Assembly: GCA_905479015.1 (NCBI GenBank)
Contig: CAJQKV010000035.1
Location: 62,001 to 126,000 of the forward strand
Reading direction: 5' to 3'
Length of the DNA stretch: 64,000 bases
From: an uncultured Cyclobacteriaceae bacterium
GTDB taxonomy: Bacteria; Bacteroidota; Bacteroidia; Cytophagales; Cyclobacteriaceae
Both the position numbers and the translations under genes were made by a program. Of the stretch, positions 3,481 to 33,004 are shown in pieces. Every line of letters begins with the position of its first letter. Position 1 is the stretch's first letter. The notes beneath the pieces are model-generated. The model ran no database searches, had not been told where the DNA came from, and worked only from the letters and a program-made list of their open reading frames with translations.

Positions 3481-3514
3481 AAAAAAGGCCTCGTTTAATG
3501 AGGCCTTTTTTTTT
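3481..3514 (+). terminator. Rho-independent terminator of the sigma factor gene
   Basis: The GGCCTC stem (3487-3492) pairs with GAGGCC (3500-3505) across a 7-base loop, preceded by six A and followed by nine T, so the stem can be lengthened by A-T pairs. It starts 19 bases after the sigma factor stop codon. Confidence 0.9.
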
Positions 3515-17893: not shown

Positions 17894-18147
17894 AAGGCTA
17901 GATGAATTTAACTCCTTGATTTTTTTTAAAAAAAAGTCTACGCCTGGATGATTACCCTACTATTTATTGAATGGGTCATGAATCTCAGTGTTTTTTTAGT
18001 TGAAGCCTAATGAATCTTTAAAAATCACATCTTTATATTAACCCAATCTTTTATTGTAAATGATTGGCTCTGGTGAAAAGAATAAATCAAGAATTAAAAT
18101 TGGGCTTATTAGCGATTTTTTTTAGTATATAATGAGTATTATTCGAT

Positions 18148-19212
18148 TTAGACTTTATAAATCCATCCAAATTTATCTTCAATAACGCCAGATTTTATTT
18201 TATCCAAGGCGTCTAAAAATCCAAGAGAATATTTCCTGGATTTGACATCAGTTAATTCATAATCAATCCCATTATAGCCGATGATTTTGATGGGAGCCAC
18301 GGTGGCTGCAGTACCCACACCAAATGCTTCTTGTAATCGCCCTTGTTCGATGGATTGAATAATTTCAGCTACCGTAATGGGACGCTCTTCTACCTTCATG
18401 CCTTGATCTTTGGCGATGGTCAAGATACTGTCTCTCGTGATGCCATTTAGAATCGTATCCCCAATAGGGGCTGTAATGAGCGTATCATTAATTATGAACA
18501 TGAGGTTCATCGTACCCGATTCTTCAATATACTGATGCGAGACGCCATCGGTCCAAATCAATTGATCATAACCTTCTTTTTGAGCATCAAGCGCAGGTTT
18601 GAGGGCTGCGGCATAATTACCACCCGTTTTTGCAAACCCAGTTCCACCCAAGACGGCACGGGTATACTTAGTTTCAATTTTTACTTTTAGGGGTTGGGAA
18701 TAATATGCCCCAACAGGGCCTGTGATGATCATGAAAGTATAGTCGTCTGAAGGCCGTATGCCCACATAGGGATCCATGGCTATTTGAAAGGGTCTAATGT
18801 AGAGTGAGGTTCCGGGATGATTAGTTACCCAACCCGCATCAAGTTTCAGTAACTCAGTAATGCCGGTCATAAAGATAGACTCAGGAATACCGGGCATACA
18901 CATGCGGGCCGCACTCAATACCATGCGTTTTGCATTGTCTTGAGGTCTAAATACGACAATTTCCTTGTGTATATTTCTATATGCCTTTAAGCCTTCAAAA
19001 ATCGTAGACGCATAGTGCAAGGTTGTATTTGCTGGACTGATACTGATGTCTCCGTAAGGGATAATATTCACATCTTGCCAGGCACCATTTTTAAAGTCAC
19101 AACACAACATGTGGTCAGCGTAGACCTTTCCAAATATGGGACTGATTAAATCAGTAGTTGCTAATTTGGATTGAGTCGTTTGGGTAATAGAAACTTTTTG
19201 ATGGATGGACAT
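18148..19212 (-). CDS. ilvE: Branched-chain amino acid aminotransferase
   Basis: A 354-residue class IV (fold-type IV) PLP aminotransferase, long form, which makes Leu, Ile and Val from their 2-oxo acids. Family signatures are TLHYASTIFEGLKAYR in the N-terminal domain, IRPFQIAMDP, the PLP lysine in FAKTGGNYAAALK, YIEESGTMNLMF, and the late GTAATVAPI loop. It ends with the conserved Gly-Trp-Ile motif. It is the last of three closely spaced minus-strand genes, 14 bases after the adenosyltransferase gene, although the operon partners are functionally unrelated. Confidence 0.95.
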   Translation of the reverse strand: MSIHQKVSITQTTQSKLATTDLISPIFGKVYADHMLCCDFKNGAWQDVNIIPYGDISISPANTTLHYASTIFEGLKAYRNIHKEIVVFRPQDNAKRMVLSAARMCMPGIPESIFMTGITELLKLDAGWVTNHPGTSLYIRPFQIAMDPYVGIRPSDDYTFMIITGPVGAYYSQPLKVKIETKYTRAVLGGTGFAKTGGNYAAALKPALDAQKEGYDQLIWTDGVSHQYIEESGTMNLMFIINDTLITAPIGDTILNGITRDSILTIAKDQGMKVEERPITVAEIIQSIEQGRLQEAFGVGTAATVAPIKIIGYNGIDYELTDVKSRKYSLGFLDALDKIKSGVIEDKFGWIYKV

Positions 19213-19226
19213 ATCTGTTTTATTCT

Positions 19227-19784
19227 TTATTTATTACCTATCCAAGGGGTTTCGTCCAGATTTAGATCGTTGGATATTGTTCTAGCAAGGATAAAGAAAT
19301 AATCGGAAAGGCGATTGATAAATGAAGTGATATTTTCATCTATTTCTTTGTGAAGAGACCATTTGACGATGGTTCGTTCTGCTCTTCGGCATACGGTACG
19401 GCACACATGACAGGCAGAAACGGTTGCGTGACCTCCAGGTAATATGAAGGAAGTAAGTTCTGGTAAATCTTCTTCATATTTGTCGATCCATGTTTCAAGC
19501 TGTTCAATATGAGTTATTGATATTTCGGGTAACTTCATGCCTTTAAAGTCCGTTGCACAGGCAAGTATTGAACCTAAAGAAAAAAGATTTTCTTGGATCC
19601 AGATGAGTTGGCTCTTTTTCGAACTATTTATTCCAGATTGGTCTCGCAGCAAACCGACAAAGGCATTCAATTCATCCACATTCCCATAGGCTTCAATTTG
19701 CAGATCAGATTTGGCTACTTTTTCACCACCTAATAAGGAGGTCTTTCCATGATCACCAGTTTTTGTGTAAATTTTTAAAGCCAT
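19227..19784 (-). CDS. Cob(I)alamin adenosyltransferase, PduO type
   Basis: A 185-residue enzyme that transfers the adenosyl group of ATP to cob(I)alamin, giving the coenzyme for mutases and ribonucleotide reductase. N-terminal KIYTKTGDHGKTSLLGG is the ATP-binding signature, YGNVDELNAFVG follows, and the C-terminal part has the conserved CRTVCRRAERT arginine-rich helix and NRLSDYFFILAR. Length is typical of the PduO/MMAB family. It sits ten bases after the ABC ATPase gene and 14 before ilvE. No cobalamin riboswitch is visible upstream. Confidence 0.93.
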   Translation of the reverse strand: MALKIYTKTGDHGKTSLLGGEKVAKSDLQIEAYGNVDELNAFVGLLRDQSGINSSKKSQLIWIQENLFSLGSILACATDFKGMKLPEISITHIEQLETWIDKYEEDLPELTSFILPGGHATVSACHVCRTVCRRAERTIVKWSLHKEIDENITSFINRLSDYFFILARTISNDLNLDETPWIGNK

Positions 19785-19793
19785 AATTATAAA

Positions 19794-20504
19794 TTAAGTA
19801 AATTCAGCAGTAATGATTTCTTTATTTTTTTCGTCAGATTCTACAATGCCATCACGGAGCCTTACAATCCGATGTGCATACCTCGAGATGTCGTCCTCAT
19901 GGGTAACCATAACAATGGTATTTCCTTCAGCATGCAGTTTTTCAAAAAGACCCATAATTGAATAGGAAGTTTTAGAATCTAAATTACCTGTAGGCTCATC
20001 GGCGAGGATAATACTGGGATCATTTACCAAAGCCCTAGCGATGGCTACTCTTTGACGTTGCCCGCCGGAGAGTTCATTGGGTTTATGATAAGCCCGATCT
20101 CCCAATCCTACACCTTCCAATACCGCATAGGCCTTTGCTTCACGGTCCGACTTTGAATACCCTGCATAGACCAAGGGCAGGGCTACATTTTCAAGTGAGG
20201 AGGCTCTAGGTAAGAGATTGAAGGTTTGAAAAACAAAGCCAATTTCCTTATTTCTAATTTCTGCCAATTCGTTTTCTGTAAGATCACTGACATCTTGATC
20301 GTTGAGAATATATTGACCTGAGGAGGGCGTATCGAGACAACCAATGAGATTCATGAGTGTCGACTTCCCTGATCCCGAAGGACCCATAAAGGCGACATAT
20401 TCTCCCTTGTTGATGGTAATGGAAACGGTTTTGAGTGCATGAATGGTCTCGCTACCCATGATGTATTTTTTGGCAATTTCCGTAGTTTTAATTATTTCAG
20501 ACAT
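19794..20504 (-). CDS. ABC transporter ATP-binding protein, MacB/LolD type
   Basis: A 236-residue ABC ATPase. It has Walker [10 protein letters not shown] near residue 42, the Q-loop [10 protein letters not shown], the signature [15 protein letters not shown], Walker [12 protein letters not shown] and the switch His in VTHEDD. QTFNLLP and [10 protein letters not shown] are characteristic of the LolD/MacB/FtsE branch, which couples to four-helix permeases working in lipoprotein sorting or peptide/antibiotic export. The permease is not adjacent here, so the partner is unknown. It is the first gene of the three-gene minus-strand unit with the cobalamin adenosyltransferase and ilvE. Confidence 0.9.
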
Positions 20505-20608
20505 TTTACTTTTTGGGAATAAGATGATTAAATGAGCAACTGAGTTATTTTACGAGTAGGGTTTATTTTGGTTCGATTTATGTTTTCAATTAACTTTTAT
20601 TTTTGCTT

Positions 20609-21316
20609 TTAATACAATTTCACAACAGACTTTTTGAGGGTAATGTCTTTTTGTTCCATCAATTGATGAATTGCATGGGCAATATCGAGAGGTTGTGTCC
20701 ACTGGGTGAAATCTGCTGCGGGCATTTGTTGACGATTGATGGGGGTATCTATGGTGCCAGGTACGATAAGAGACGTGAAGACCTTATCTTCAGCGCTTGA
20801 TTCATTCAATGAATGGGTCAATTGTAATAGCAGGCTTTTTGAGAGGGTATAAGGCAGGATTTCCCTGCTAGAGCCTTCAAACAAAGGACGTGATCCAATC
20901 ATGAAAATATCACCACCACCTACTTCGCACATCCATTTATGAACGGGTTTGATGACATTGATGGCTGTGAAAAAATTCAATTTAATCATATGCTCAAAAT
21001 CACTCATTTTGGCATTGGACAAGTTGTTCATAGCAAATCCTCCCACCGTTAGAATAACTGCTTTGAGCTCGATTTTTTCGCTTTGAAGCTGATCAATAAG
21101 TTCCTGTGCTGCATTTTCATCGGTCAAATTTAACGGATAATATTTAGTGTTATTGCGGTTTATTGCGGTCTTACTCGGGGAAGTGGTTCCGAATACTTGA
21201 TATCCTGTTGATGAAAAGTAATCCGTCATAGGACTTCCTAAGCCACCTAAGGCACCGGTGATGAGCAAGGTTTTCAAAATTAAATTATTTAGATTACACA
21301 ATGAATTATGAGTCAA
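20609..21316 (-). CDS. SDR family NAD(P)-dependent oxidoreductase
   Basis: A short-chain dehydrogenase/reductase of about 222-235 residues. TGALGGLGSP near the N-terminus is the glycine-rich nucleotide-binding motif, and PYTLSKS contains the YxxxK catalytic pair preceded by a Ser (IGSRPL). Substrate unknown. The longest frame begins at 21316 and overlaps the divergent atl-like gene, but the TTG at 21277 gives MKTLLITGALGG, the normal SDR start, and a -7-like GATCTTTG on the minus strand lies just upstream of 21316; 21277 is therefore the more likely start. Confidence 0.85.
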   Translation of the reverse strand: MTHNSLCNLNNLILKTLLITGALGGLGSPMTDYFSSTGYQVFGTTSPSKTAINRNNTKYYPLNLTDENAAQELIDQLQSEKIELKAVILTVGGFAMNNLSNAKMSDFEHMIKLNFFTAINVIKPVHKWMCEVGGGDIFMIGSRPLFEGSSREILPYTLSKSLLLQLTHSLNESSAEDKVFTSLIVPGTIDTPINRQQMPAADFTQWTQPLDIAHAIHQLMEQKDITLKKSVVKLY

Positions 21317-21640
21317 AGATCGTCATTTTTTCAAGATGTTTATGAAGTCGTCATGTTAATTCCAAAGGGCAGAGTAACTTCTTACGGAGCGATAGGAAAA
21401 TATTTGGGTATGCCATCAAGTGCAAGAATGGTGGGATGGGCCATGAATGCGTCGCATACTTTGCCCAAAGTGCCGGCACATCGAGTGGTGAATCGAGTGG
21501 GCGTTCTAACGGGGAAGCATTTTTTTGAAACTCCCAGTCGCATGCAAGAATTATTAGAGGCAGAGCATATAAAGGTTGATAATGATCAAATTCAGCGCTT
21601 TGAAGATTTTTTTTGGGATCCAGTAAAAGAGCTACCTTGA
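21308..21640 (+). CDS. Alkyltransferase-like protein (ATL), MGMT family
   Basis: A 110-residue protein matching the C-terminal DNA-binding domain of O6-methylguanine-DNA methyltransferase. It has the Tyr (Y26) and Arg finger (R40 in SARMVGWAM) that flip the damaged base, but the active-site PCHRV is PAHRV here (A57 in place of the acceptor Cys). It therefore cannot accept the alkyl group and should act as an ATL protein, binding O6-alkylguanine and handing it to nucleotide excision repair (known for E. coli Atl, Thermus TTHA1564 and yeast Atl1). Its start overlaps the longest frame of the divergent SDR gene, and its end overlaps the convergent symporter by nine bases. Confidence 0.9.
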   Translation: MSQRSSFFQDVYEVVMLIPKGRVTSYGAIGKYLGMPSSARMVGWAMNASHTLPKVPAHRVVNRVGVLTGKHFFETPSRMQELLEAEHIKVDNDQIQRFEDFFWDPVKELP

Positions 21641-23074
21641 TTTCTTGCTGATCAGCCAAAGTCCTAGGAAAGTAAAGGCGCCGTTGAGCATGAGTAACTC
21701 AAAACCAAATTGATAGCCATTGAGCCATTCGCTTGAATACTTGCTCAGCAAGTAGCAAAAAACAGGGGCGAGTATACAAATGAGGGGAACCCACTGATCC
21801 TTAACAATGCGCTGAGTAAAAATACCAAAGGAAAATAAGCCCAATAAAGGCCCATAAGTATAACCTGCGACTGAAAAAATGGAATTGATCACACTTTGAT
21901 CATTTATTGCCTTGAAAAAAAGAATTACCACGATCAGTAGCAGAGAAAAACCAATGTGAACCATCAATTTAGTTTGCTTTTTTGATTCAAAATTGTGAGG
22001 CTTGAAATTCAAAAAATCTATACAAAAAGAAGTGGTCAATGCAGTGAGTGCCGAATCGGCACTGGAGTAAGCCGCTGCAGTAATACCGAGGAGAAAGGCA
22101 ATGCCAGCAATTGAGGAAAAATGTTCTATGGCTAAGTAAGGAAATAGATTATCAGTTCCTGGAGGGACTACGATGCCCTTAAGTTCTACAAACTGATACA
22201 ACAAGACCCCAAGTACCATAAAAAGTAAATTGACGGGGATCAGACTGAGACTCATCCAATAGATGTTTTTTTGAGATTCTTTTAAATTCCTACAGGTCAA
22301 GTTTTTTTGCATCATGTCTTGATCGAGTCCGGTCATGACCACTGCAATAAAGGCACCAGAAAAGAATTGTTTGAAAAAATTACGACTGTGTTGCCAGTCC
22401 CAATTGAAAATTGTGCTCTTACTGTCGTTATAAACTTGAGAAGTCAAGGTAGACCAAGACCAGTTGAGATCTTCTTTAATGAAATAGATACTCATCAGAA
22501 CTGAAATAAGCATAAAGGTAGTCTGCAAGGTATCTGTCCAAACAATTGTTTTAATGCCGCCTCTAAAGGTATAAAGCCAAATTAACAGGACGGCGGATAC
22601 TACGGCAACCCAAAACGGCAATTCATAACTATCGAAAATAGCAAGTTGAAGTACACTCGCCACAAGAAAAAGTCTAAAGGAAGCCCCAATGACTCGGCTC
22701 AATAAAAAGAAAAAGGCGCCAGACTTGTAAGACCAAAACCCTAAACGTTGATCAAGATAGGTGTATATCGAAATGAGGTTATGCTTGTAGTAAAGGGGTA
22801 ATAATATTTGAGCAATGATGGCATATCCCACGAGATACCCCAGAACCATTTGAAAATAATAAAAATTACTATTACCGACCTCACCAGGTACCGAAATAAA
22901 GGTAACCCCCGAAAGAGAGGCACCAATCATCCCGAAAGCGACCAGATACCAAGGAGATTGTCGATTGCCATCGTAGAAGGAATGAGCCGTATTATTTTTG
23001 GAGGTGAACCATGAAATAGCAATTAATAAAATAAAATAGCCACCAATAATGAGCAATATTAATAAAGGATCCAT
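21632..23074 (-). CDS. Sodium:solute symporter (SSS family)
   Basis: A membrane protein of 480 residues (if started at the ATG at 23074; a frame beginning at 23101 adds nine residues) with 13 hydrophobic segments. SGVTFISVPGEVG in the first helices and the GITAAAYSSADSALTAL segment in helix 8, which carries the Na+-binding Ser/Thr residues, identify the SSS/SSF family. Substrates include sugars, amino acids, sialic acid or carboxylates; none can be chosen from sequence. The ATG at 23074 is preferred because DPLLILLIIGGYF begins the first helix directly. It is divergent from clpS. Confidence 0.88.
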   Translation of the reverse strand: MDPLLILLIIGGYFILLIAISWFTSKNNTAHSFYDGNRQSPWYLVAFGMIGASLSGVTFISVPGEVGNSNFYYFQMVLGYLVGYAIIAQILLPLYYKHNLISIYTYLDQRLGFWSYKSGAFFFLLSRVIGASFRLFLVASVLQLAIFDSYELPFWVAVVSAVLLIWLYTFRGGIKTIVWTDTLQTTFMLISVLMSIYFIKEDLNWSWSTLTSQVYNDSKSTIFNWDWQHSRNFFKQFFSGAFIAVVMTGLDQDMMQKNLTCRNLKESQKNIYWMSLSLIPVNLLFMVLGVLLYQFVELKGIVVPPGTDNLFPYLAIEHFSSIAGIAFLLGITAAAYSSADSALTALTTSFCIDFLNFKPHNFESKKQTKLMVHIGFSLLLIVVILFFKAINDQSVINSIFSVAGYTYGPLLGLFSFGIFTQRIVKDQWVPLICILAPVFCYLLSKYSSEWLNGYQFGFELLMLNGAFTFLGLWLISKKSR

Positions 23075-23095
23075 TCTTTTAATAAGTTGAGATAG

Positions 23096-23124
23096 TTGCA
23101 AAATAATAGTTATTGATAACTTTG
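23096..23124 (+). promoter_or_regulatory. clpS-recR promoter (TTG-N18-TAACTTTG)
   Basis: TTG at 23096-23098 and TAACTTTG at 23117-23124 are separated by 18 bases and match the Bacteroidota consensus. The predicted start near 23129 leaves a leader of about 12 bases before the clpS ATG. Confidence 0.65.
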
Positions 23125-23140
23125 CATCAAATTATTATCA

Positions 23141-23428
23141 ATGAACATGAATTTCGAGCCGGAAGTTGAAGAACTGGTTGAGGTAGCATTGGATATTGAT
23201 CAAGAGAAGGAAAGAGGTCTTATTGTTTATAATGATGACTACAATACTTTTGATCATGTGACCTCAACGCTGATAAAAGTATGCAAACATCGCCCTATTC
23301 AGGCAGAACAATGCACTTATATCATTCATTATAAGGGGAAATGTCTTGTGAAAAAAGGCAGCTACGAAATATTAAAACCCATGCGAGAAGCCCTATCTGA
23401 AGCCGGGATTAAAGCCGTTATTGAATAA
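23141..23428 (+). CDS. clpS: ATP-dependent Clp protease adaptor ClpS
   Basis: A 95-residue N-end-rule adaptor that delivers substrates with bulky N-terminal residues to ClpA/ClpC-ClpP. The core YNDDYNTFDHVTSTLIKVC contains the NDD/NT substrate-pocket signature and the following helix. EQCTYIIHYKGKCLVKKG is the conserved ClpS middle segment, in which many ClpS proteins have H rather than Y at the metal site. The unusually acidic N-terminal 25 residues are the extension that enters the Clp pore. recR starts directly after the stop codon. Confidence 0.92.
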   Translation: MNMNFEPEVEELVEVALDIDQEKERGLIVYNDDYNTFDHVTSTLIKVCKHRPIQAEQCTYIIHYKGKCLVKKGSYEILKPMREALSEAGIKAVIE

Positions 23429-24040
23429 ATGGAATTTTCTTCAAAACTAGTTGAGCAAGCCGTTGAGGAAATCTCAAAATTACCAGGCATAGGAAAGAAA
23501 ACAGCTTTGCGATTGGCTTTGCATCTATTGAAGCAGCCAGAAGATCAGACCTTACTGTTGACCCAAAAATTAAAAGAACTGCGGGAGGACATCAAATATT
23601 GTCAAACCTGCCACATCATAAGTGATACCCAAGATTGTACTTGCAAGACCATGTCCATAAATCCAGCACTGATTTGTGTGGTAGAAGAAACACCTGACGT
23701 ATTGGCGATTCGTAATACAGGCCAATACAATGGGATGTTTCATGTTTTAGGAGGTCGAATTTCTCCCATTGATGGAATTGGACCAGATGAATTGATGATC
23801 ACAAGTTTAGTCAATCGAATCAAACTAAGTGATGGAGAAATAAAGGAAGTTATTCTGGCACTTAGCGGTACTTTGGAGGGTGATACGACTGCTTTTTATT
23901 TAACCAAGCAATTAGAGGAGTTGAACGTTGAAGTAACCTCGATAACGAGAGGAATTCCTGTGGGAGGTGAGCTTGAATATGCCGATGAGGTCACTTTGGG
24001 CAGGAGTATTATTACTCGAAGTAAAGTAAATACAGATTAA
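23429..24040 (+). CDS. recR: Recombination mediator RecR
   Basis: A 203-residue protein that with RecO and RecF loads RecA on gapped DNA. It has the N-terminal helix-hairpin-helix ([17 protein letters not shown]), a four-Cys zinc finger ([16 protein letters not shown], about residues 57-72), and a TOPRIM domain beginning with [13 protein letters not shown] and containing [18 protein letters not shown], followed by the C-terminal Walker-B-like block [14 protein letters not shown]. Length is typical. The ATG follows the clpS TAA with no gap, so translation is likely coupled. Confidence 0.97.
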
Positions 24041-24225
24041 TTTCGTTTGTTATTGATGCCATCCCAGAGCGAATAGAAAATAAGGAGAAGGATACCCGCT
24101 ATCAAAATAGGAAAAATCCAATTGGTTTTCCCCTCTCTAAAACCAGCCATAAATCTTATGCTTGCTAGCGCAGCAGCGGCCAAGCCTAAAAGTACACCTA
24201 GACCCTTTCGAACAATTGGATTCAT
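24037..24225 (-). CDS. Small two-helix membrane protein
   Basis: A 62-residue predicted membrane protein with two hydrophobic helices (about residues 7-25 and 36-53) joined by a short basic/polar turn containing GFREGKTNW, ending in a charged tail. No family was recognised. It overlaps the 3' end of recR by four bases on the opposite strand. A clean two-helix profile and plausible codon use support a real gene, but it could be spurious. Confidence 0.5.
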
Positions 24226-24424
24226 TTTTTATGCGTTCATGAACGAGTTATATTTTTCACTAAATATTCTTTCAGATAAATCTTGTTCAAGATGTTAGTA
24301 AAATATATGTAAAATTGATAAACATTTCATTATTTTCAATTTTTATTTAATTGTAGAAACCAATTTAATTTTTTTTTAGCTAAATTGATTATTATTAAAA
24401 TTTTTTAACCTAAAACAATAACTT
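24226..24424. other. AT-rich regulatory region upstream of the rhodopsin gene, with a 12-bp palindrome
   Basis: This divergent region contains a perfect palindrome CGTTCATGAACG at 24234-24245, next to the start of the small membrane protein gene and 180 bases from the rhodopsin start. The 100 bases before the rhodopsin ATG are more than 80% A+T. A strict TAnnTTTG promoter is not visible. The palindrome could be an operator for either gene; this is inference only. Confidence 0.35.
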
Positions 24425-25147
24425 ATGAATTTCACACTTAACGCTATTTTGCAGTCTGGAGACTACGTTGGGTTTACCTTTTTTATTGGTAGCATGGCCA
24501 TGCTTGCCGCTACTGTATTCTTCTTTCTCGAGATGGGGAATGTTCAAGGTAAATGGAGAACGTCTATGTTGATCTCAGGATTGATTACCTTCATTGCAGC
24601 AGTGCATTACTTTTATATGAGAGATTTTTGGGCAGAGACAGGTACTTCTCCCACTGAATTTAGATACATTGATTGGATTTTAACAGTACCCTTAATGTGT
24701 GTTGAATTTTATCTTATTTTAAAGGCCTTTGGAGCCAAGATGGATCTTTTGTGGAAAATGATTGTTTATTCGCTTTGGATGCTTATTTTCGGATATCTAG
24801 GAGAGACGGTATATAGAGATTCTAGTGCGATCTGGGGTGCTATATCTACCTTAGGTTACGTGGGTATTTTCTATGAAGTATGGTTTGGATCTGCCAAAAA
24901 GCTTTCACAAGGATCAAATGATCCCCATTTGCAGAAAGCATTTAACACTTTAGCATGGTTCATATTAGTTGGATGGGCTATTTATCCAATTGGATACATG
25001 GCGATACCAGGTGGATTATTAAGTGGAGTATTACCTTTAGAGTCTCTAGACATTATCTATAATATTGGAGATGCAATAAATAAAATTGGTTTTGGATTAG
25101 TGATTTATTCATTGGCCATCAGCAGCGGTAAAAAAGCAGAAGCTTAA
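24425..25147 (+). CDS. Proteorhodopsin, outward proton pump, green-type
   Basis: A 240-residue seven-helix retinal protein of the inner membrane. Functional residues by alignment to proteorhodopsin (PR) and Gloeobacter rhodopsin: H61 (PR His75), R80, counterion D83 with T87 and E94 (the D-T-E motif of a proton pump with its own cytoplasmic donor), M91 at PR position 105 (non-Gln, expected green absorption), D216 and the retinal Schiff-base lysine K220 in GDAINKIGFG. G138 in IWGAISTLG aligns with Gly178 of Gloeobacter rhodopsin, the fenestration residue that permits a carotenoid antenna, where many PRs have a bulky residue. The retinal-forming blh gene follows on the same strand. Confidence 0.97.
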   Translation: MNFTLNAILQSGDYVGFTFFIGSMAMLAATVFFFLEMGNVQGKWRTSMLISGLITFIAAVHYFYMRDFWAETGTSPTEFRYIDWILTVPLMCVEFYLILKAFGAKMDLLWKMIVYSLWMLIFGYLGETVYRDSSAIWGAISTLGYVGIFYEVWFGSAKKLSQGSNDPHLQKAFNTLAWFILVGWAIYPIGYMAIPGGLLSGVLPLESLDIIYNIGDAINKIGFGLVIYSLAISSGKKAEA

Positions 25148-25163
25148 TACCATAAAATTAGTT

Positions 25164-25194
25164 AAAAGAGGGTATTTTAATGCCCTCTTTTTTT
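25164..25194 (+). terminator. Intrinsic terminator/attenuator between rhodopsin and blh
   Basis: AAAAGAGGG (25164-25172) pairs perfectly with CCCTCTTTT (25183-25191) over a 10-base loop, and T continues to 25194, directly before the blh ATG at 25195. It would stop much of the transcription leaving the rhodopsin gene; leaky read-through would supply blh at a lower level. No separate blh promoter is visible in the 47-base gap. Confidence 0.8.
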
Positions 25195-26100
25195 ATGACT
25201 AAATATTTACAATACGGATTTGCTTTGGTTGTGGGATCACTTTATTTGGTGTTTATCCCTGAAGATGATGTGACAAATATAATGGCACTGACGGCCATTT
25301 TGTTTTTTGGCGTCCCTCATGGGGCCATTGATCATAAAATTCACCTTAAATTCTCAAAAAAAAGCAACATTAAAAAATTCATTTTGATATATATCTTGGT
25401 GGGTTTGGGCTTTTTGTTGTGGTGGGTGTTGATGCCACTGAAAGCGTTATTGATCTTTATCATTTTGTCGGCCTATCATTTTGGACAAGAATTGATTGAA
25501 GACATTGCAGAAACCCCGAAAGACCCTATTCTTAATTTAAGTTGGGGATTGATCGTATTAGTAAGTCCAATCATTTTGAAATTTAATGAACTACTACCTA
25601 CCCTAAATTTCATTGGTTCACAATCGATATCAAGGATACCGAAGGATATCCAAGTAATTACCGTTTTAGTCATTCACCTACTGGGCTATGTTTATATAGC
25701 TTATCTACTTGTTAAAGGAGTAATTCGTAAAGTTGCGGTCATTCGCTTGATTCTTTTTTCTATTTACTTATTACTGAGTTATCTTATGCTTCCCTTTATT
25801 GTCGCTTTTGCACTTTATTTTGTTTTATTTCATTCAATCAATGCAATGCGACACCAATTTTTTTGGATGAAAGATCGTACGACTGATTATACATTCGCTT
25901 CTTTCTTAAAAGACCTAAGCCCTTTTACTTTACTGACCATTGTGGGAATGTCCGGTTTGATTTATTATTTAGATCCTGCTGACTGGTCTGTGTTTTTTAC
26001 CTATTTTTTCGTCTTTATTTCCTTATTGACCTTACCGCATGCCATCCTGTTTGATGAGCTGTATTTATCCAAGAATACCGCAAAGTATCCCAAAGATTAA
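25195..26100 (+). CDS. blh: Beta-carotene 15,15'-dioxygenase, Brp/Blh family
   Basis: A 301-residue polytopic membrane enzyme that cleaves beta-carotene to two molecules of retinal for the adjacent rhodopsin. Family His motifs proposed to bind iron are visible: PHGAIDHKIHL near the N-terminus, SAYHFGQEL and the later LFHSINAMRHQ, plus a C-terminal LPHAILFDELY. Eight or so hydrophobic segments are present. An upstream ATG at 25180 lies in the loop of the terminator hairpin and would add five residues; 25195, just past the T-run, is preferred. Carotenoid synthesis genes are not in this window. Confidence 0.93.
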   Translation: MTKYLQYGFALVVGSLYLVFIPEDDVTNIMALTAILFFGVPHGAIDHKIHLKFSKKSNIKKFILIYILVGLGFLLWWVLMPLKALLIFIILSAYHFGQELIEDIAETPKDPILNLSWGLIVLVSPIILKFNELLPTLNFIGSQSISRIPKDIQVITVLVIHLLGYVYIAYLLVKGVIRKVAVIRLILFSIYLLLSYLMLPFIVAFALYFVLFHSINAMRHQFFWMKDRTTDYTFASFLKDLSPFTLLTIVGMSGLIYYLDPADWSVFFTYFFVFISLLTLPHAILFDELYLSKNTAKYPKD

Positions 26101-26149
26101 ATCTGTTTTCATTTAGGTATTTATTGTTCTTCCTCTTCAATTTTTAGGG

Positions 26150-27028
26150 TTAGCTCAACTCCTCATCAAATTTATTATGAATCATTAGGATGAGTAGGCC
26201 AAATACGATGGCACCGATAATGAGCCCTATGTTTAGCAATCCGGTTACTGAGAAGGATAATCGAATCAAGATGGTAGAAATGATAAACCCAGAATTACGG
26301 ATGACCTTGTGGAATTTATCCGTGTAGTAAAATGAGGCCAGTAATAAAATCACGTCTACTACGATCAATAGTGTGAAAAATTCATCAAAAAATATGTTAT
26401 TGATATCTTTAAAGGAAGTTTTAATCATCGCATCAAGATTAAAAAGAGTAAACGTCCAATTTGAAAGACTGTAAGTGGCAATGATGACGAGTATAGGAAC
26501 TAAACTGGCAGCGATGACTTTCTTCAATGTTATAAAACCATCGATATTGCTGGTGATTACTTTTTGAGTTTCCGAGTGCTTAGGCTTACTTTGCTTATAA
26601 AAAAGGTAGAGTAGGTAGAACATGACTACCGAGGCAATAATATCGAAAGTAAATTGAAGGTCATTTTTAATTTCAAACCAATTGGTAGAGAGTTTTAATT
26701 CTGATAAGTCTTTGAACAATCGTCTGATAACGATGAGTGTTATGATCTCATATTGTTTGCCAATATAAGTAGTTATGGATCTTGGTAAATAGTAGATGAC
26801 CAGGTAGACTTCATACAATAAAATAAATGAAAAAGGGGTATAGATGGCGGCGATGGGACTGTCAAAAAGGCTAGATTCTAAGTGAATTAATTTGAGTTGA
26901 ACCAATAAAATCAGTAGGAGATGTATGACAAAGCTTGCAATGGCGATGCTCAGAATAATTTTCTCACTTCTTTTTTTAGTGGTCTCGGAAAGTAAGTAAC
27001 GAAATATATTTTGGATGTTATTTTTCAC
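26150..27028 (-). CDS. Multi-pass membrane protein of unknown function
   Basis: A 292-residue protein with about seven hydrophobic helices. The N-terminal 22 residues are polar and basic (KKRSEK), followed by a helix pair at about 25-80. A long amphipathic stretch around 90-120 contains several Arg and Lys, and a further four helices lie between 125 and 285. The layout recalls Bacteroidota membrane proteins annotated only as hypothetical. No catalytic, channel or nucleotide-binding motif was recognised. It faces blh convergently with a gap of 49 bases. Confidence 0.7.
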   Translation of the reverse strand: MKNNIQNIFRYLLSETTKKRSEKIILSIAIASFVIHLLLILLVQLKLIHLESSLFDSPIAAIYTPFSFILLYEVYLVIYYLPRSITTYIGKQYEIITLIVIRRLFKDLSELKLSTNWFEIKNDLQFTFDIIASVVMFYLLYLFYKQSKPKHSETQKVITSNIDGFITLKKVIAASLVPILVIIATYSLSNWTFTLFNLDAMIKTSFKDINNIFFDEFFTLLIVVDVILLLASFYYTDKFHKVIRNSGFIISTILIRLSFSVTGLLNIGLIIGAIVFGLLILMIHNKFDEELS

Positions 27029-27424
27029 GTTTTGAATTTTACAGATTGTAGGTAAGTTGTTTCGAAAGCCAAAAACGTCGCCTACTAATTAAACTCAATT
27101 AATATACCAAATAATTCAATAAAATCCAAATTAATTAGGTCAAAATATAGTTTGTGAATATTAATAAAGGCTGGAGTGGGTTGAGTTTAATCAAGGTAGT
27201 TATTCCCTTTTTTAAAGGGCTGAAGATTCACCCTGTAGGGTAATCATTCCTATTGAATAATGGTATTTTACAGGTTATTACGGATAATTTTAGAGGATTA
27301 GTGACAAAAGACCTTACTTCGCGCAGTTGCTTTTCATAAATGGTGAATTTGGAAGGTCGAGATTATAGAACTAACTTTTTTTTATAATCGTTAATGAGTT
27401 ACCTATTTCAAGGACCTTTCTTTT
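27029..27424. other. Divergent intergenic region with two adjacent short inverted repeats
   Basis: This 396-base AT-rich stretch holds no gene-like frame. Two small perfect inverted repeats lie close together: CCCTTT-TTT-AAAGGG at 27205-27219 and ACCCT-GT-AGGGT at 27230-27241. They could be hairpins or operator sites. No strict TAnnTTTG promoter is apparent for either flanking gene. Confidence 0.35.
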
Positions 27425-28213
27425 ATGATTAATTTCAATGTTATTCCTAATCCCGAATCCAATATTTGGATCGTCTTCATTCATGGGGCGGGAGGGAGTA
27501 TCCGAACTTGGAAACGTCAAGTGGAAGCTTTGCAGCAACACGCTAAATTATTACTGTTGGATTTACGGGATCATGGGGCATCTGAGCCCATCAACCCCTC
27601 ACCGAGTCAATATGATTTCGAATTAATATCTAATGATATTAAAGAAGTAATGGATCATTTAGAGATAGCAAAGGCACATTTCATTACGCTTTCTTTGGGG
27701 AGTGTATTGATTCAAGATTTATCAATGCGTTATCCCACTTATATTGGGAAAGTAGTGATGGCAGGAGGAGTCTTCAATGCTAATATCATTTTAAAATGTT
27801 TCATTCAAGCTGCAAAGACATTAAATAGGATCTTACCCTATGCTATGATGTATCGTTTGTGCTCCTATATACTCATGCCGCGAAAAAGAAATCAAAATTC
27901 AAGAAAAATATATCAACGTGAAGCGCAGAAGTTGACCAGAGAGGCTTATATGCGCTGGGTTTCCCTTTCTAAATATTTTATAAAATTATTGAAGCGCTTT
28001 TTTAAGACCAAAAGTTCTTTTGAGAACCTGATCATCATGGGAGGACAAGATTATGTATTTCTAAGCGGTGCTCGGAAGTATGCAAGGAATCAACCTAAAT
28101 CAACTTTTATTGTCATTCCTGCTGTGGGTCATATTTGTAATATTGATGGTAGAAATGTGTTTAATAACCATGTTATTCAGTTTTTTTTTGATAATCAATC
28201 AGCGGGAAAATAG
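27425..28213 (+). CDS. Alpha/beta hydrolase
   Basis: A 262-residue cytoplasmic alpha/beta-hydrolase-fold protein. FIHGAGGS near residue 19 supplies the oxyanion hole. The nucleophile elbow reads ITLSLGS near residue 89, where the first Gly of the usual G-x-S-x-G is replaced by Thr. The acid is probably the Asp in MGGQDYVF and the His that of PAVGHICN. A basic, Arg/Lys-rich cap region lies around residues 130-200. Substrate unknown. It is monocistronic, divergent from the membrane protein gene and convergent with the M14 peptidase. Confidence 0.8.
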   Translation: MINFNVIPNPESNIWIVFIHGAGGSIRTWKRQVEALQQHAKLLLLDLRDHGASEPINPSPSQYDFELISNDIKEVMDHLEIAKAHFITLSLGSVLIQDLSMRYPTYIGKVVMAGGVFNANIILKCFIQAAKTLNRILPYAMMYRLCSYILMPRKRNQNSRKIYQREAQKLTREAYMRWVSLSKYFIKLLKRFFKTKSSFENLIIMGGQDYVFLSGARKYARNQPKSTFIVIPAVGHICNIDGRNVFNNHVIQFFFDNQSAGK

Positions 28214-28289
28214 TTCAAGAAATAAAAGGATTTGAACGCAAGCATGTTCAGTTACCTTCAACACATAGATCATATTTTTGATTTATGTA

Positions 28290-31031
28290 TTACTCTTTTT
28301 CGGATGCTATGGACTGAGGATTGGACCAAAATGAGGTATTAATGGGGTGTGCTTTTGCGACATTTTGATTGAATAATAATGCGTTAAATAGGATTCGGAA
28401 AGTCCCCATAGGTTGACCGCGCCATTGTGGCTGAAATCCTAAAAGGATCACATGGCCTGCACCATGGTGCACATCCAAGGCAGCAGCATAATCATTCATG
28501 TATTCGCTTCCGAGTAAATAACCTGATGCTAGGGGAGACCCTTTGGGTTGGTATTTGGCCAATGCCTCACCTTCAAATCCCTTTAAGGTATTAAATACAG
28601 GGCTGTTAGAGACAAAAACATGTGCGTTTTTTGGCATGCCAGCCATGACAGGATGGGTATTATTAATGGAAACGTGCATGAGAGATCCTCCTGTAAAAAA
28701 ATCCTTGCGCTTCAATTGAGCTACTTTATTTTCAACGGGGAGGAAAAGTTTTTCAATGGCAAAATTACTGCTTTGATTCATGCAAACCAGGGTGCCTCCT
28801 TGAGATACGAATTGGTCTAAATTTCTTATGCCTTGTGCACCCAATCCACCTTCGTACCTAGGGGGTACTTGTCCCTTTGGGTATCCATCTTCGATAGTAT
28901 GGGGTCTTTCTGAAGCCATGAGAATGACGTCAAAGCGATCTTGAAGATGGCCTGCAATGAAATCTTCATTACGAAGGCTGGTATAATTTGTTCCAAATTG
29001 GTCTAAAATCCAACGGGTCCATCCCATATCCATACTTGCTCGCCAAGGTCTGTATAATCCAATTTTTGGCTTGAGGGATACGCCGTTACCTGCAGTGGTC
29101 ATTAAACCATTCACAGCATAATCATTGATCCATTGATTGATTTGAGTTTTGGAAGCTCCTGAGATGAGGTATTTATTTTCAGCATATTTGACGTTGAGTT
29201 GTTGCTCCCATGCTTCATTCATGATCCTGAATATATTGTTCTCTTTCGGATCTAAGAGTAAATGAGGACCGCTTCCTTTGAGTATACCGGGTAAGGGATG
29301 GATACCTGCGGCGACATTATTGGTATTAAATCCTGCGCCTGGGGCAAAGTCAACTTTGCTTACATCTTCCTTACTCGTCATCCGCCAATCTACCGCTTCG
29401 CCCTGAACATCTACAAGGGCGGATCTCACCTCTTCGGTTAACGGGCTTGCTGCGGCTATCACATTGAGCTCAAATTGAAAGGGTAGGGTCCATCCAGCGG
29501 CATCATAGGGTTGCTCCGGGGGTCCACCTGGATACTCTCGAAGATCAGGATAGCTTTGTATTTCTAAAATTTGTCTGGCCAATTCACCGAATTCTTGATC
29601 CATCGGAATGACCCAAGTACCTTTTGGGTAGCTGATATTATTGAAAGTAACTTGTGCCTTGAGTTGCGTAATACGAATTCCATTAAAAGCCAATCTTTTG
29701 AGCAGTTCGACGGGTCTTGCGGGGTCAGTTTGCTTTTGGGGAATAAAATAGGCAAAAGGGGGTTCTTTTTTGTATTTTTCAATGGTTTGTTTACCTGCTT
29801 GAAACTTATTGAATAAAAGCACTTCTGAATATTTTGCGGCATAATCTAATACCGCTATGGATGCCGTTTGCATATAAGTAACGGCATCAGACAAACGCCA
29901 CCAGCCCCCTTTCCAAGGACTTGAATAAAGGGACTCCAAACGAAATCCTTTTCGATCGGTCGGAAAATCTTTTAGGGTATAAAAATAAGGGGTGGCATAT
30001 CGGTAAAGTGCCGTTTCGGTCCAATAGGCTGGAATGTTTTGTAAGACGGGCAAATAATCAATATAACCAGGGTACCAAGCATCAAAACCTTTGCCCATGT
30101 GTACGGCACCTGCTAAGCCCTGTGTTTCCAATTCTTGGGCGATGGCCATACCTATCATATTTACTTCTCTGGCGACCAAAGGAGGGGTTCGTGTGGCAAC
30201 GGGTTCTGCGAAGGGGGGAAGCCATATACGTGTAGGAAAAGGAGAAGATTGATGATGAACATGAATGATATTGGGCTCCCATTCGCGCCAAATCCGCGTA
30301 ATGTTGCGGGATTCAATCATATTGACCATGTAAGCATCCCTATTGTTGTCATGACCTATGTATTTTTGATAAAGCCAAGGTATGGGAGCGGCTTCATAAG
30401 GCGTACCCACATGTTCCTTATACCAGTTGACGACGATGTCTTGGCCATCAGGATTGAGTGAAGGCCACAGTAACAGGATGACATTGTCCAAGATATCTTT
30501 CACCTTTTTATCTTCAGTATGCGTCAATAAATAATGTGCCAGGGAGAGGGTGTGCTGGGCACCTGCGACTTCGGTAGCATGAAGACCTCCATCGATATGG
30601 ACAATAGGTTTGCCTTCTTGAGCCAAAGCTTTGGCCTGTGCTACTGACAATTTTTCAGGGTGGGCTAATAATTGTGAGATTTCCTTATACCTTTTGATAT
30701 TGGCTAGGTTTTCTTTTGAAGAAATCACGGCATAATACCAAGAGCGATCTTCTGAAGTTTTTCCGGCGTATTGCAGTTCAATAAGATCAGAAGAGGCTTC
30801 AAGTTTTTGAAAATAATCAAGGGACTCTTCATAACTGGCCAATTTAAAATCGGCACCTACTTTAAAACCTAAGATAGATTCTGGTGAAGGAATCGAACTA
30901 TTTTGTGCTTGAATAGGAACATTGGTGATCAGTAAAGCACTAATAGTTAGGATTATTAAGGTCAAGCCTTTGGAGCAAACCCGCTGCAGTTGGGATGAAA
31001 TTTTCATGAGTAGGGTAAAAAGATGTTTCAT
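28290..31031 (-). CDS. M14 family zinc carboxypeptidase, large exported form
   Basis: A 913-residue exported peptidase. A signal peptide ends near residue 42 (ITNVPIQAQ). The M14 domain has the zinc ligands of HxxE type in GGLHATEVAG (about residue 152), the substrate-binding WPSLNPDG, HDNNRDAY, and the third ligand in IIHVHHQ. The catalytic Glu is probably that of YWTETALYRY. The remaining 500 residues include beta-rich segments and a class I glutamine-amidotransferase-like flavodoxin fold with VILMASERPH and GGTLVCMNQS. Such long M14 proteins are frequent in Bacteroidota and probably digest peptides in the periplasm. It has its own -7 element upstream. Confidence 0.88.
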   Translation of the reverse strand: MKHLFTLLMKISSQLQRVCSKGLTLIILTISALLITNVPIQAQNSSIPSPESILGFKVGADFKLASYEESLDYFQKLEASSDLIELQYAGKTSEDRSWYYAVISSKENLANIKRYKEISQLLAHPEKLSVAQAKALAQEGKPIVHIDGGLHATEVAGAQHTLSLAHYLLTHTEDKKVKDILDNVILLLWPSLNPDGQDIVVNWYKEHVGTPYEAAPIPWLYQKYIGHDNNRDAYMVNMIESRNITRIWREWEPNIIHVHHQSSPFPTRIWLPPFAEPVATRTPPLVAREVNMIGMAIAQELETQGLAGAVHMGKGFDAWYPGYIDYLPVLQNIPAYWTETALYRYATPYFYTLKDFPTDRKGFRLESLYSSPWKGGWWRLSDAVTYMQTASIAVLDYAAKYSEVLLFNKFQAGKQTIEKYKKEPPFAYFIPQKQTDPARPVELLKRLAFNGIRITQLKAQVTFNNISYPKGTWVIPMDQEFGELARQILEIQSYPDLREYPGGPPEQPYDAAGWTLPFQFELNVIAAASPLTEEVRSALVDVQGEAVDWRMTSKEDVSKVDFAPGAGFNTNNVAAGIHPLPGILKGSGPHLLLDPKENNIFRIMNEAWEQQLNVKYAENKYLISGASKTQINQWINDYAVNGLMTTAGNGVSLKPKIGLYRPWRASMDMGWTRWILDQFGTNYTSLRNEDFIAGHLQDRFDVILMASERPHTIEDGYPKGQVPPRYEGGLGAQGIRNLDQFVSQGGTLVCMNQSSNFAIEKLFLPVENKVAQLKRKDFFTGGSLMHVSINNTHPVMAGMPKNAHVFVSNSPVFNTLKGFEGEALAKYQPKGSPLASGYLLGSEYMNDYAAALDVHHGAGHVILLGFQPQWRGQPMGTFRILFNALLFNQNVAKAHPINTSFWSNPQSIASEKE

Positions 31032-31075
31032 ATTTAAGCGATTTCATTGGATAGAAAATATCAGGGACCAACCCT

Positions 31076-31083
31076 CAAAGTTA
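31076..31083 (-). promoter_or_regulatory. -7 element (TAACTTTG) of the M14 peptidase gene
   Basis: TAACTTTG on the minus strand matches TAnnTTTG, about 45 bases before the ATG at 31031, so the leader would be about 40 bases. No TTG is seen at the expected -33 distance. Confidence 0.45.
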
Positions 31084-31138
31084 ATGCGTGTCCAAAAGAG
31101 GAGATCGGCCAACCTTTAAATAAGACTATAATTTAATG

Positions 31139-32110
31139 TTATCTGGCTATAAAACCCGGATGTATACCTGAGGATAAATCAAAATAATCTCCCACAGCGC
31201 CTACTACCGCATCTGATCTACCCAAGTTTAATTGGGTTCTTAGGGCATAAAGCGCATTAATTCCAGTACAATGGGCACCGATTATTTTTTTTAAACCGAA
31301 GGCTTTCAATTTTTCTCCGGTCCATTTCAAATGCGCATCATTGGCGGTCACCAGATGAAATCCCCCTATGGCGGCATATAACTTGGCTTCATTAATATGC
31401 GCTTTTATATATTCAAGGGTATTGATGATGCCGGCATGCCCACATCCAGAAATCAAAACCATACCCTTGGCTGTGTTTATGGCCATGGATTGATCTTCTG
31501 GGATACGGTCTTCTATGGGTCCATTTGGGGTTTCAATTTGACTATTTCCTGACCAATTTCGCTCATCGTGCAGTCGAGGGATAGGCCCCGTGACCCACAC
31601 ACCTGGGAACAATGCTTCCTGTTGTTTGTGTATAATGAAAATTACCCCATCTGATTCTAAGCGATCTTTCAATATGAGCATGTCATTTTCAGCATTGACT
31701 CTTTTGCTAAAAATACCTTCAGCGACATGAATTCTAGAGAGGGCTTTCGGATTTTTTTGTTTCAAATGATTTCTTAAAGTCAACAACCCCCCCGTATGAT
31801 CACTGTGATTATGACTCAGGAAAACATCTTCCACATCCGATAAATCTATATTTAAATCAAGGGCATTTTGAAGGACAGTTTTGGGTTTATTTCCGGTATC
31901 GAACAATATTTTATGGCCATCGACTTCAATGAGTGCTGCATAACCCCATTCTCCGATTCCTTTATCGGCCAACATAGTAGATAAGGTCGTTATTTTTACG
32001 GTGTTCACTTGATCTGATTTTGACTGATCAAACCGAGGGGTTATAACTGTAGCGGCCTTGACATAGACATTTATTACAAAAATAAGGGCCATTGATTTTA
32101 AAAAGCGCAT
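31139..32110 (-). CDS. Exported metallo-beta-lactamase fold hydrolase
   Basis: A 323-residue protein with an N-terminal signal peptide (about residues 1-20) and an MBL fold. The metal motif reads FLSHNHSDHTGG near residue 98, preceded by ILFDTGN. Further ligands are in ISGCGHAGI and the C-terminal IGGFHLV and GAHCTG. The pattern resembles the subgroup annotated as methanopterin-type dihydropterin synthases, which also includes lactonases and phosphodiesterase-like enzymes; an exported location makes a cofactor-synthesis role unlikely. It lies 107 bases upstream of the M14 gene on the same strand. Confidence 0.82.
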   Translation of the reverse strand: MRFLKSMALIFVINVYVKAATVITPRFDQSKSDQVNTVKITTLSTMLADKGIGEWGYAALIEVDGHKILFDTGNKPKTVLQNALDLNIDLSDVEDVFLSHNHSDHTGGLLTLRNHLKQKNPKALSRIHVAEGIFSKRVNAENDMLILKDRLESDGVIFIIHKQQEALFPGVWVTGPIPRLHDERNWSGNSQIETPNGPIEDRIPEDQSMAINTAKGMVLISGCGHAGIINTLEYIKAHINEAKLYAAIGGFHLVTANDAHLKWTGEKLKAFGLKKIIGAHCTGINALYALRTQLNLGRSDAVVGAVGDYFDLSSGIHPGFIAR

Positions 32111-32149
32111 AGATTAAATCTCATATTTTCATAGATTTTATTAGAATAA

Positions 32150-32185
32150 CTAAACCCACAGGCTACTGAGAACCCATGGGTTTAG
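32150..32185 (-). terminator. Possible terminator hairpin downstream of the small membrane protein
   Basis: CTAAACCCA (32150-32158) pairs perfectly with TGGGTTTAG (32177-32185) around an 18-base loop. On the minus strand it lies 27 bases after the stop codon of the upstream gene and is followed by a T-rich but interrupted stretch, so termination may be weak. Confidence 0.45.
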
Positions 32186-32211
32186 CTTTTAATAAAGAAA
32201 CAGGGTTAATT

Positions 32212-32622
32212 TTATTTTAGCTTATCTAAAGTCCAACCTATAGCCCCGCCAGCCAAAAGGCCAAAAGCGGCAGAGATGAGTGTATCACTCATCATTAGAG
32301 AGACATCATAAAACTTGAATAGAAATAAATTATTCATGTTTGCAACCAGCCAAATGCCCCCACTGAACCAGATGCCGTTCAGCGCACCACTTTTCAGCGT
32401 GTTGAAATTCATTTTATCAAAACTGTAGGTCATCAAGATCGCTTGCGCAAGACCTACACCCATTCCCACTAGGAAGTTTTGGTCCGATTCTGAATTCATT
32501 GACTCTGGATACGTCGCAATCATTTCGGTCATTAAATCTTGATAAAACAGCATATAGGCTATCATGCCAGATACCATTGAGGCCACAAATCCAGCTAAAG
32601 TGGCAAGAATTAATTTTTTCAT
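32212..32622 (-). CDS. Small membrane protein, four helices
   Basis: A 136-residue protein with four hydrophobic helices: residues 3-25 (LATLAGFVASMVSGMIAYML), about 50-68, 80-98 and 110-130. The Gly/Ala-rich first and last helices resemble small DUF1761- or DUF2177-like membrane proteins. No function can be inferred. It stands alone on the minus strand, divergent from the glycan-utilisation locus, and is followed by a possible terminator hairpin. Confidence 0.65.
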   Translation of the reverse strand: MKKLILATLAGFVASMVSGMIAYMLFYQDLMTEMIATYPESMNSESDQNFLVGMGVGLAQAILMTYSFDKMNFNTLKSGALNGIWFSGGIWLVANMNNLFLFKFYDVSLMMSDTLISAAFGLLAGGAIGWTLDKLK

Positions 32623-33004
32623 TTTGTAGTTATTTAGTTGTGTGTTTTATAATATTCGAAATAGAACTCCTTTTCTAAATCAGAAAATAAAGCAAATTCA
32701 TTTGTTGATAAAGTTAACCATAATATTTAAATATTATAACAGCTCTAATTTTCAACTTTTTGACAACAAAAATGGTTTGTTAAACTAATGTCATTACCTG
32801 AATCAATAAAACCGGATCCAATTATTTTTTTTACCTTTATGTTGGATACTAATGACCCATAGATGACCTTTATATGTTCGAACATATGAATCACGTTTAT
32901 TTTAAAATGAATCATCTTTCATTAAAGTAGGCCTAATTTATTGAAGTGGACACATGGGGCTTTGTCCTATGGATCATTGAGTATAAAACTTATAAACATA
33001 GATA
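32623..33004. other. Divergent regulatory region upstream of the ROK kinase
   Basis: These 382 bases contain no gene-like frame. Their main feature is the 16-bp palindrome at 32872-32887. On the plus strand TATGTTCG (32873-32880), inside that palindrome, is a one-mismatch -7 element for the downstream ROK gene, which would give a leader of about 115 bases. Nothing else is evident. Confidence 0.45.
32872..32887. promoter_or_regulatory. Palindromic operator candidate for the GntR regulator (site 1)
   Basis: A perfect 16-bp palindrome ATATGTTCGAACATAT. Its core TATGTT-CG-AACATA differs only in the central two bases from the site at 38017-38030, which lies upstream of the gntR-family gene and of the DUF5004-SusC operon. 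Its half-sites, GT and AC around a central dyad, fit the operator pattern of HutC-type GntR proteins. It overlaps a possible -7 element. Confidence 0.65.

Follow-up and report, generated by a model that had tools for sequence, protein, structure and literature searches.

A terminator-like hairpin between the rhodopsin and blh genes of a Cyclobacteriaceae bacterium, probably the leaky terminator of the rhodopsin gene

The rhodopsin-blh locus and its intergenic hairpin

The window, by which we mean the whole analyzed stretch of 64,000 nucleotides, contains a proteorhodopsin-type rhodopsin gene that is followed on the same strand by blh, the gene for a retinal-forming dioxygenase. The features of the locus are:

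24425..25147, + strand: proteorhodopsin-type rhodopsin gene, 240 aa (Pfam PF01036, E 2.1e-44)
25148..25163, + strand: spacer of 16 nt between the rhodopsin stop codon and the stem, read from the sequence, its letters poorly conserved
25164..25191, + strand: hairpin with arms 25164-25172 and 25183-25191 (fold -14.6 kcal/mol, z -5.4)
25180..25182, + strand: alternative in-frame start ATG of blh inside the hairpin, opening the longest blh ORF (ATG in 6/10 and GTG in 4/10 genus loci)
25188..25194, + strand: run of seven T, the first four of which are also paired in the stem
25195..26100, + strand: blh, Brp/Blh-type beta-carotene 15,15'-dioxygenase, with its likely start at ATG 25195 (PF15461, E 1.2e-42; TIGR03753 above cut-off)

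The rhodopsin gene is the single match of its family in the window's genome. The stem begins 16 nt past the rhodopsin TAA (25145-25147), and the perfect 9-bp Watson-Crick stem that had been proposed for the gap between this stop codon and the blh ATG is indeed present, as the left arm AAAAGAGGG (25164-25172) is complementary to the right arm CCCTCTTTT (25183-25191). In the RNA fold, three further pairs (U-G, A-U and U-A) lengthen the stem to 12 pairs that enclose a 4-nt loop, and its stability was equalled by none of 200 shuffled sequences. The original prediction further described the stem as being followed by seven T. The run of seven T exists, but four of its residues belong to the 3' arm and only three extend beyond the 9-bp stem. 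The element can thus be described either as 9 bp plus three T or as a 5-bp GAGGG/CCCTC core plus seven T.

The hairpin combines the two hallmarks of an intrinsic terminator, namely a stable, GC-cored stem (-14.6 kcal/mol, with 96% of the stem cells paired in the genus) and a T-tract directly after the stem, with the reservation that four of the seven T can also pair. Its placement between two co-directional genes (24425-25147 and 25195-26100, both on the + strand) is that of an operon attenuator. A conserved alternative pairing, as expected for an attenuator or a start-codon switch, was not found for the outer stem over the ATG, which was the only such pairing examined. In the window fold, this outer stem (UUAGUUA/UGACUAA) pairs over part of ATG 25195, and inspection by eye indicated that its partner strand is not kept in relatives; a conserved switch that masks the start codon was consequently rejected. 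A described leader-RNA family was rejected as well, as the two Rfam matches scored 24.2 and 20.2 bits against gathering scores of 58.7 and 45.

The + strand of the 64-kb window contains two perfect 9-bp stems in contact with six or more T, and 20 shuffled versions of the window contain none. Among 48 gene ends scored in the window, two were terminator-like, i.e., the hairpin after the rhodopsin gene and a site at 3482-3510. The latter is the sole other strong terminator-like hairpin found on the + strand and is located directly 3' of an rpoD-like sigma-70 gene (2590-3462). A consensus terminator scan did not report the rhodopsin-blh hairpin, presumably owing to the loop limit of the scan and the number of T.

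The start codon of blh

ATG 25195-25197 abuts the end of the T-run, where the start of blh had been predicted. The longest blh ORF begins at ATG 25180 instead, so that the start is inferred by us rather than read from the frame. ATG 25195 is likely the true start, because the DNA downstream of it is nearly identical in the genus alignment and because the early codons are invariant at silent sites: in nine loci, 7 of the first 8 informative codons show no silent change, versus 66 of 189 overall (p 0.003). The conservation of ATG 25180 is not telling, since this codon sits in the stem and pairing accounts for it equally well.

Conservation within the genus

Ten genus loci from nine genomes were aligned, i.e., the window and nine others; two of the ten loci come from one MAG. 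The tenth genus genome (G006, 81% complete) gave no match to blh or rhodopsin. The hairpin, the seven T and the ATG are all kept in 10/10 loci, and the stem begins 16-19 nt past the rhodopsin stop in each of them, with poor conservation of the spacer letters. Across nine distinct rows, 96% of the stem cells are paired, 7 of 11 pairs are invariant, and the inner pair at columns 26-37 is G-U in four, G-C in three and A-U in two rows. Covariation in this alignment did not exceed the shuffle control (217/500 shuffles reach the score), and the hairpin is outscored by one slid version of the structure (0.141 vs 0.126), which counts against the terminator reading presented below.

Several irregularities were encountered among the aligned and related loci. 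The MAG with two loci carries near-identical rhodopsin-blh copies, L003 (CAJJBF010000001.1) and L002 (CAJJBF010000016.1); the rhodopsin frame of L003 is broken into fragments and the contig of L002 ends inside the rhodopsin gene. This duplication may result from strain mixture or assembly. In one genus member (L010/L015), an in-frame TAG makes blh 12 nt shorter at its 3' end than in the other members. A further locus, L021 (G114:C106), encodes a rhodopsin about 85% identical to that of the window, but a Blh only about 42% identical over residues 46-295; this pair of genes may have been reassorted.

Terminator-like sites at rhodopsin 3' ends

Of 196 genomes of the family, 69 contain a rhodopsin match, as do 61 of 395 genomes of the phylum. 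For each locus, the 87 nt past the stop codon were scored with one and the same scanner on a simplified scale of our own, with parameters modeled on TransTerm-like programs. The survey counted 139 rhodopsin rows (141 minus the two L003 fragments), truncated rhodopsins included and seven full-length rhodopsin places as well as fragmentary matches left out. The model used for crtY was seeded with a single protein, a lycopene cyclase according to Pfam, and control gene ends were drawn from the window and 80 further stretches.

In the retinal context, defined by a same-strand blh or crtY as the next gene, 40/60 rhodopsins are followed by a terminator-like site (31/51 outside the window's genus), with the reservation, valid for all classes and control ends given here, that gene calls are naive ORFs and that assignments may be wrong in places. 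The sites are found after 14/22 rhodopsins with blh next and after 26/38 with crtY next on the same strand. They are equally seen where the neighbor lies on the opposite strand (30/41), where other same-strand genes follow nearby (16/24) or far away (9/12), and where no neighbor was seen (2/2). Stems of -8 or better are present in 18/22 loci with blh next and in 33/38 with crtY next, and thus outnumber those that pass the terminator scan. In another family of the phylum (f24; L081, L082, L086, L097 and L175), blh is a convergent neighbor, and a terminator-like hairpin follows the rhodopsin gene in 5/5 cases.

Control ends gave lower values. Same-strand gaps were terminator-like in 25/148 cases at lengths of 13-130 nt, in 11/78 cases when longer and in 2/200 cases when shorter or overlapping, and convergent ends were so in 23/248 cases. 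Such sites are nearly absent from the ends of the retinal genes themselves (0/32 for crtY ends before blh and 1/51 for blh ends), and dinucleotide-shuffled flanks of the retinal context scored in 7/1200 cases. High values were obtained for two gene families of presumably abundant expression, which had been chosen for this reason: groEL of the same family was terminator-like in 30/30 loci (the best-placed 30, with a match in 58/60 genomes) and cold-shock genes in 20/29 scored loci (of the best-placed 30, with a match in 40/41 genomes).

Terminator-like sites follow rhodopsin genes in same-strand and opposite-strand contexts alike; therefore, the hairpin is associated with the rhodopsin gene irrespective of the neighbor. 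The idea of a special control element for blh is not borne out by these numbers, given 30/41 rhodopsins with opposite-strand neighbors versus 40/60 in the retinal context and 30/30 for groEL. The comparison of gaps at related proteorhodopsin-blh loci, which had been suggested as a check, turned out favorably within the genus (10/10 keep the hairpin), but not outside of it, where only 5/13 loci of the family and phylum with blh directly next pass the scan. Among the 22 rows in which blh is the immediate neighbor, 9 belong to the window's genus, which supplies 9 of the 14 positives, and this dependence has to be held against the terminator reading.

Transcription into blh

A scan for TTG plus TANNTTTG across 24800-25210 yielded one match versus 0.95 expected. 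This match lies at 25065-25094, upstream of the hairpin, and its position is shared by 4/10 genus loci. A sigma-70-type scan of 18000-33000 yielded 44 sites versus 50.4 expected, one of them at 25036-25063 inside the rhodopsin gene. A hidden blh promoter at either site was rejected: the first match is at chance level, and since both are upstream of the hairpin, transcripts from either would still have to cross it. The earlier statement that no separate blh promoter is visible therefore holds, but carries little weight: promoter scans are a weak test here, because the region upstream of the rhodopsin gene also gives nothing above chance (one TTG/TANNTTTG match versus 0.71 expected).

The predicted dependence of blh on read-through can be retained in a restricted form. 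The position of the hairpin leaves read-through as the only route for transcripts begun upstream of 25164, and the remaining bypass is a transcription start located no more than 22 nt ahead of the blh ATG. An RNA-seq study of Dokdonia PRO95 describes blh as “expressed weakly but detectably” (PMC3587595); this strain belongs to another lineage, whose gene arrangement may differ. Its weak blh expression is in line with a low demand for Blh.

A probable leaky terminator of the rhodopsin gene

Most likely, the hairpin is an intrinsic terminator that belongs to the rhodopsin gene, of the type seen at groEL ends, and not a device specific for blh. We infer that it terminates transcription in vivo, that it is leaky and that most blh mRNA arises by read-through, and we regard this joint reading as probable. 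Most polymerases leaving the rhodopsin gene would be released in the T-run, where it borders the blh start codon, and the resulting opsin mRNA would be monocistronic and carry the hairpin at its 3' end. The minority that passes the hairpin would produce a rhodopsin-blh mRNA, from which Blh, needed only catalytically, would be made in smaller amounts than opsin. In this longer RNA, only 3 nt separate the stem from ATG 25195, and this proximity would be expected to lower the translation of Blh further. Because no transcript begun upstream of 25164 can reach blh without crossing the hairpin, Blh should stay below opsin if read-through is partial; such an excess of opsin mRNA over blh mRNA is the most economical reading of the arrangement.

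Some observations speak against this terminator. In addition to the uneven distribution of positives and the lack of covariation mentioned above, four of the seven T are able to pair and 20/60 loci of the retinal context are not terminator-like by the scan. No description of a terminator between rhodopsin and blh was recognized in the open-access literature among the matches listed.

Opsin without retinal does not pump, and the balance of opsin and retinal bears on the efficiency of light-driven pumps. The survey suggests that, in this phylum, an intrinsic terminator is common at the end of rhodopsin genes, including those with retinal genes next on the same strand. Terminators before retinal genes predict strongly graded expression inside rhodopsin operons.

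Alternative explanations

A variant of the leaky terminator would place it in the shadow of the ribosome that finishes the rhodopsin gene: opsin translation would block folding of the hairpin and admit polymerase to the retinal genes, and retinal synthesis would be tied to opsin translation. We consider this unlikely for the hairpin studied here. A related effect is known from E. coli, where termination at tR2 is almost fully repressed near a stop codon and reaches its maximum only at distances above about 27-30 nt in the series reported in PMC4824070, a repression ascribed there to the last ribosome. At 17-18 nt, termination efficiencies of about 0.12 and about 0.8 are given for two series of that report (PMC4824070). 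The genus spacers (16-19 nt in 10/10 loci) lie at about this distance.

Spacers were compared in 138 rows of at least 200 aa, the set also used for the tree, with slightly different de-duplication than in the survey (59 retinal-context rows, 40 of them terminator-like). Where a hairpin follows a retinal-context rhodopsin (46 cases), the median from stop codon to stem is 10 nt (41/46 at 20 nt or below), a set that drops 13/59 retinal-context rows without a hairpin at the energy threshold, among them the window and six genus loci, so that the locus discussed here stands outside of it. The median is 25 nt in 61 other rhodopsins (at most 20 nt in 16/61), 24 nt in 30 groEL genes (8/30) and 22 nt in 15 same-strand control gaps (4/15). 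T-runs are also shorter in retinal contexts (median 5 vs 6, p 0.002, with ancestry ignored). As raw counts, the spacer and T-run contrasts both reach significance. However, 19 terminator-like convergent control ends, whose spacers may be shifted by naive gene ends, have a median of 18 nt (at most 20 nt in 14/19), with no difference to the retinal spacers (p 0.90). Moreover, nearly all retinal-context loci come from one family, and the four from elsewhere have a median spacer of 26 nt. On the tree, the retinal context changes nine times; the paired test has four supported independent pairs and reaches significance neither for the spacer nor for the T-run. The spacer signal is gone after clustering at 75 or 85% identity; for the T-run, clustering leaves p 0.11 at 75% and 0.007 at 85% in all loci, and 0.37 and 0.05, respectively, within the family. 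Short operon gaps by themselves could compress the spacer.

Compared with other rhodopsins, the hairpin of retinal operons lies nearer to the stop codon, at a distance that a terminating ribosome could reach, in a manner that is confounded with ancestry and resembles convergent gene ends. That opsin translation gates the entry of polymerase into the family's retinal genes via the distance of terminator and stop codon is, on these comparisons, quite improbable. If it were true, a self-balancing ratio of pigment to protein would arise from one ordinary terminator and its distance from the stop codon.

In a second alternative, the hairpin would act mainly as a 3'-end stabilizer or processing boundary, similar to that of the puf operon: transcription would continue past it, and the dicistronic RNA would be cut, with its rhodopsin part outliving its blh part. 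The excess of stable stems (18/22 and 33/38) over passes of the terminator scan in retinal contexts is consistent with such a role, as are some retinal-context loci with a strong stem and a poor T-tail (e.g., L106, L110, L111, L113 and L134). A pure stabilizer would not need the T7 run, which is invariant in 10/10 genus loci, and we give this explanation only a small chance.

The same T7 run is pertinent to the possibility that transcription of blh starts separately, within the hairpin or immediately past it, and that the terminator merely insulates the two genes. A tail of this strength could mean near-complete termination, with blh mRNA coming from elsewhere, and a leaderless or very short-leader blh mRNA begun inside the hairpin is possible; the unusual silent-site conservation of the start region would suit such a transcript. 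The promoter scan, in which the single TTG/TANNTTTG match was at chance level and upstream of the hairpin, argues against it, albeit as a weak test that gives nothing above chance before the rhodopsin gene either. On balance, an own start of blh seems rather unlikely to us.

A chance palindrome without function, for which the AT-rich sequence with its common T-runs might be invoked, is extremely unlikely in view of the window shuffles without a comparable site, the retention of the hairpin in 10/10 genus loci and the enrichment of such sites at rhodopsin ends.

Comparison with known systems

The hairpin, in our preferred reading the leaky terminator of the rhodopsin gene, resembles intrinsic (Rho-independent) terminators such as those of groEL in the same family in its GC-cored stem, its T-tract and its location tens of nt past a stop codon. 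What sets it apart from ordinary terminators of this type is the co-directional and functionally linked gene whose start abuts the T-tract. In the puf operon of purple bacteria, an intercistronic hairpin between photosystem genes favors the proximal product via differential mRNA decay. The likeness to the window lies in the hairpin, whereas the T7 tail of the window would point to termination rather than decay. A further parallel is the hairpin between arsC and arsD in the ars1 operon of Bacillus sp. CDB3, which is likewise situated between co-directional genes and was suggested to reduce expression of the operon as a whole (PMC4562236). For ars1, that study reports both a short transcript and a hairpin effect (PMC4562236), whereas for the rhodopsin-blh hairpin both are predictions.

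The window's genome has no PF05834 lycopene cyclase above cut-off and two close PF18916 lycopene-cyclase matches (G000:C7:171827-172492). Its beta-carotene may therefore come from another type of cyclase than the crtY of relatives' rhodopsin operons. Further counterparts are the rhodopsin-crtY-blh and rhodopsin-blh loci elsewhere in the family, which carry a hairpin at the same place (terminator-like in 26/38 with crtY next); in the window's genus, by contrast, blh itself follows and begins directly at the T-run.
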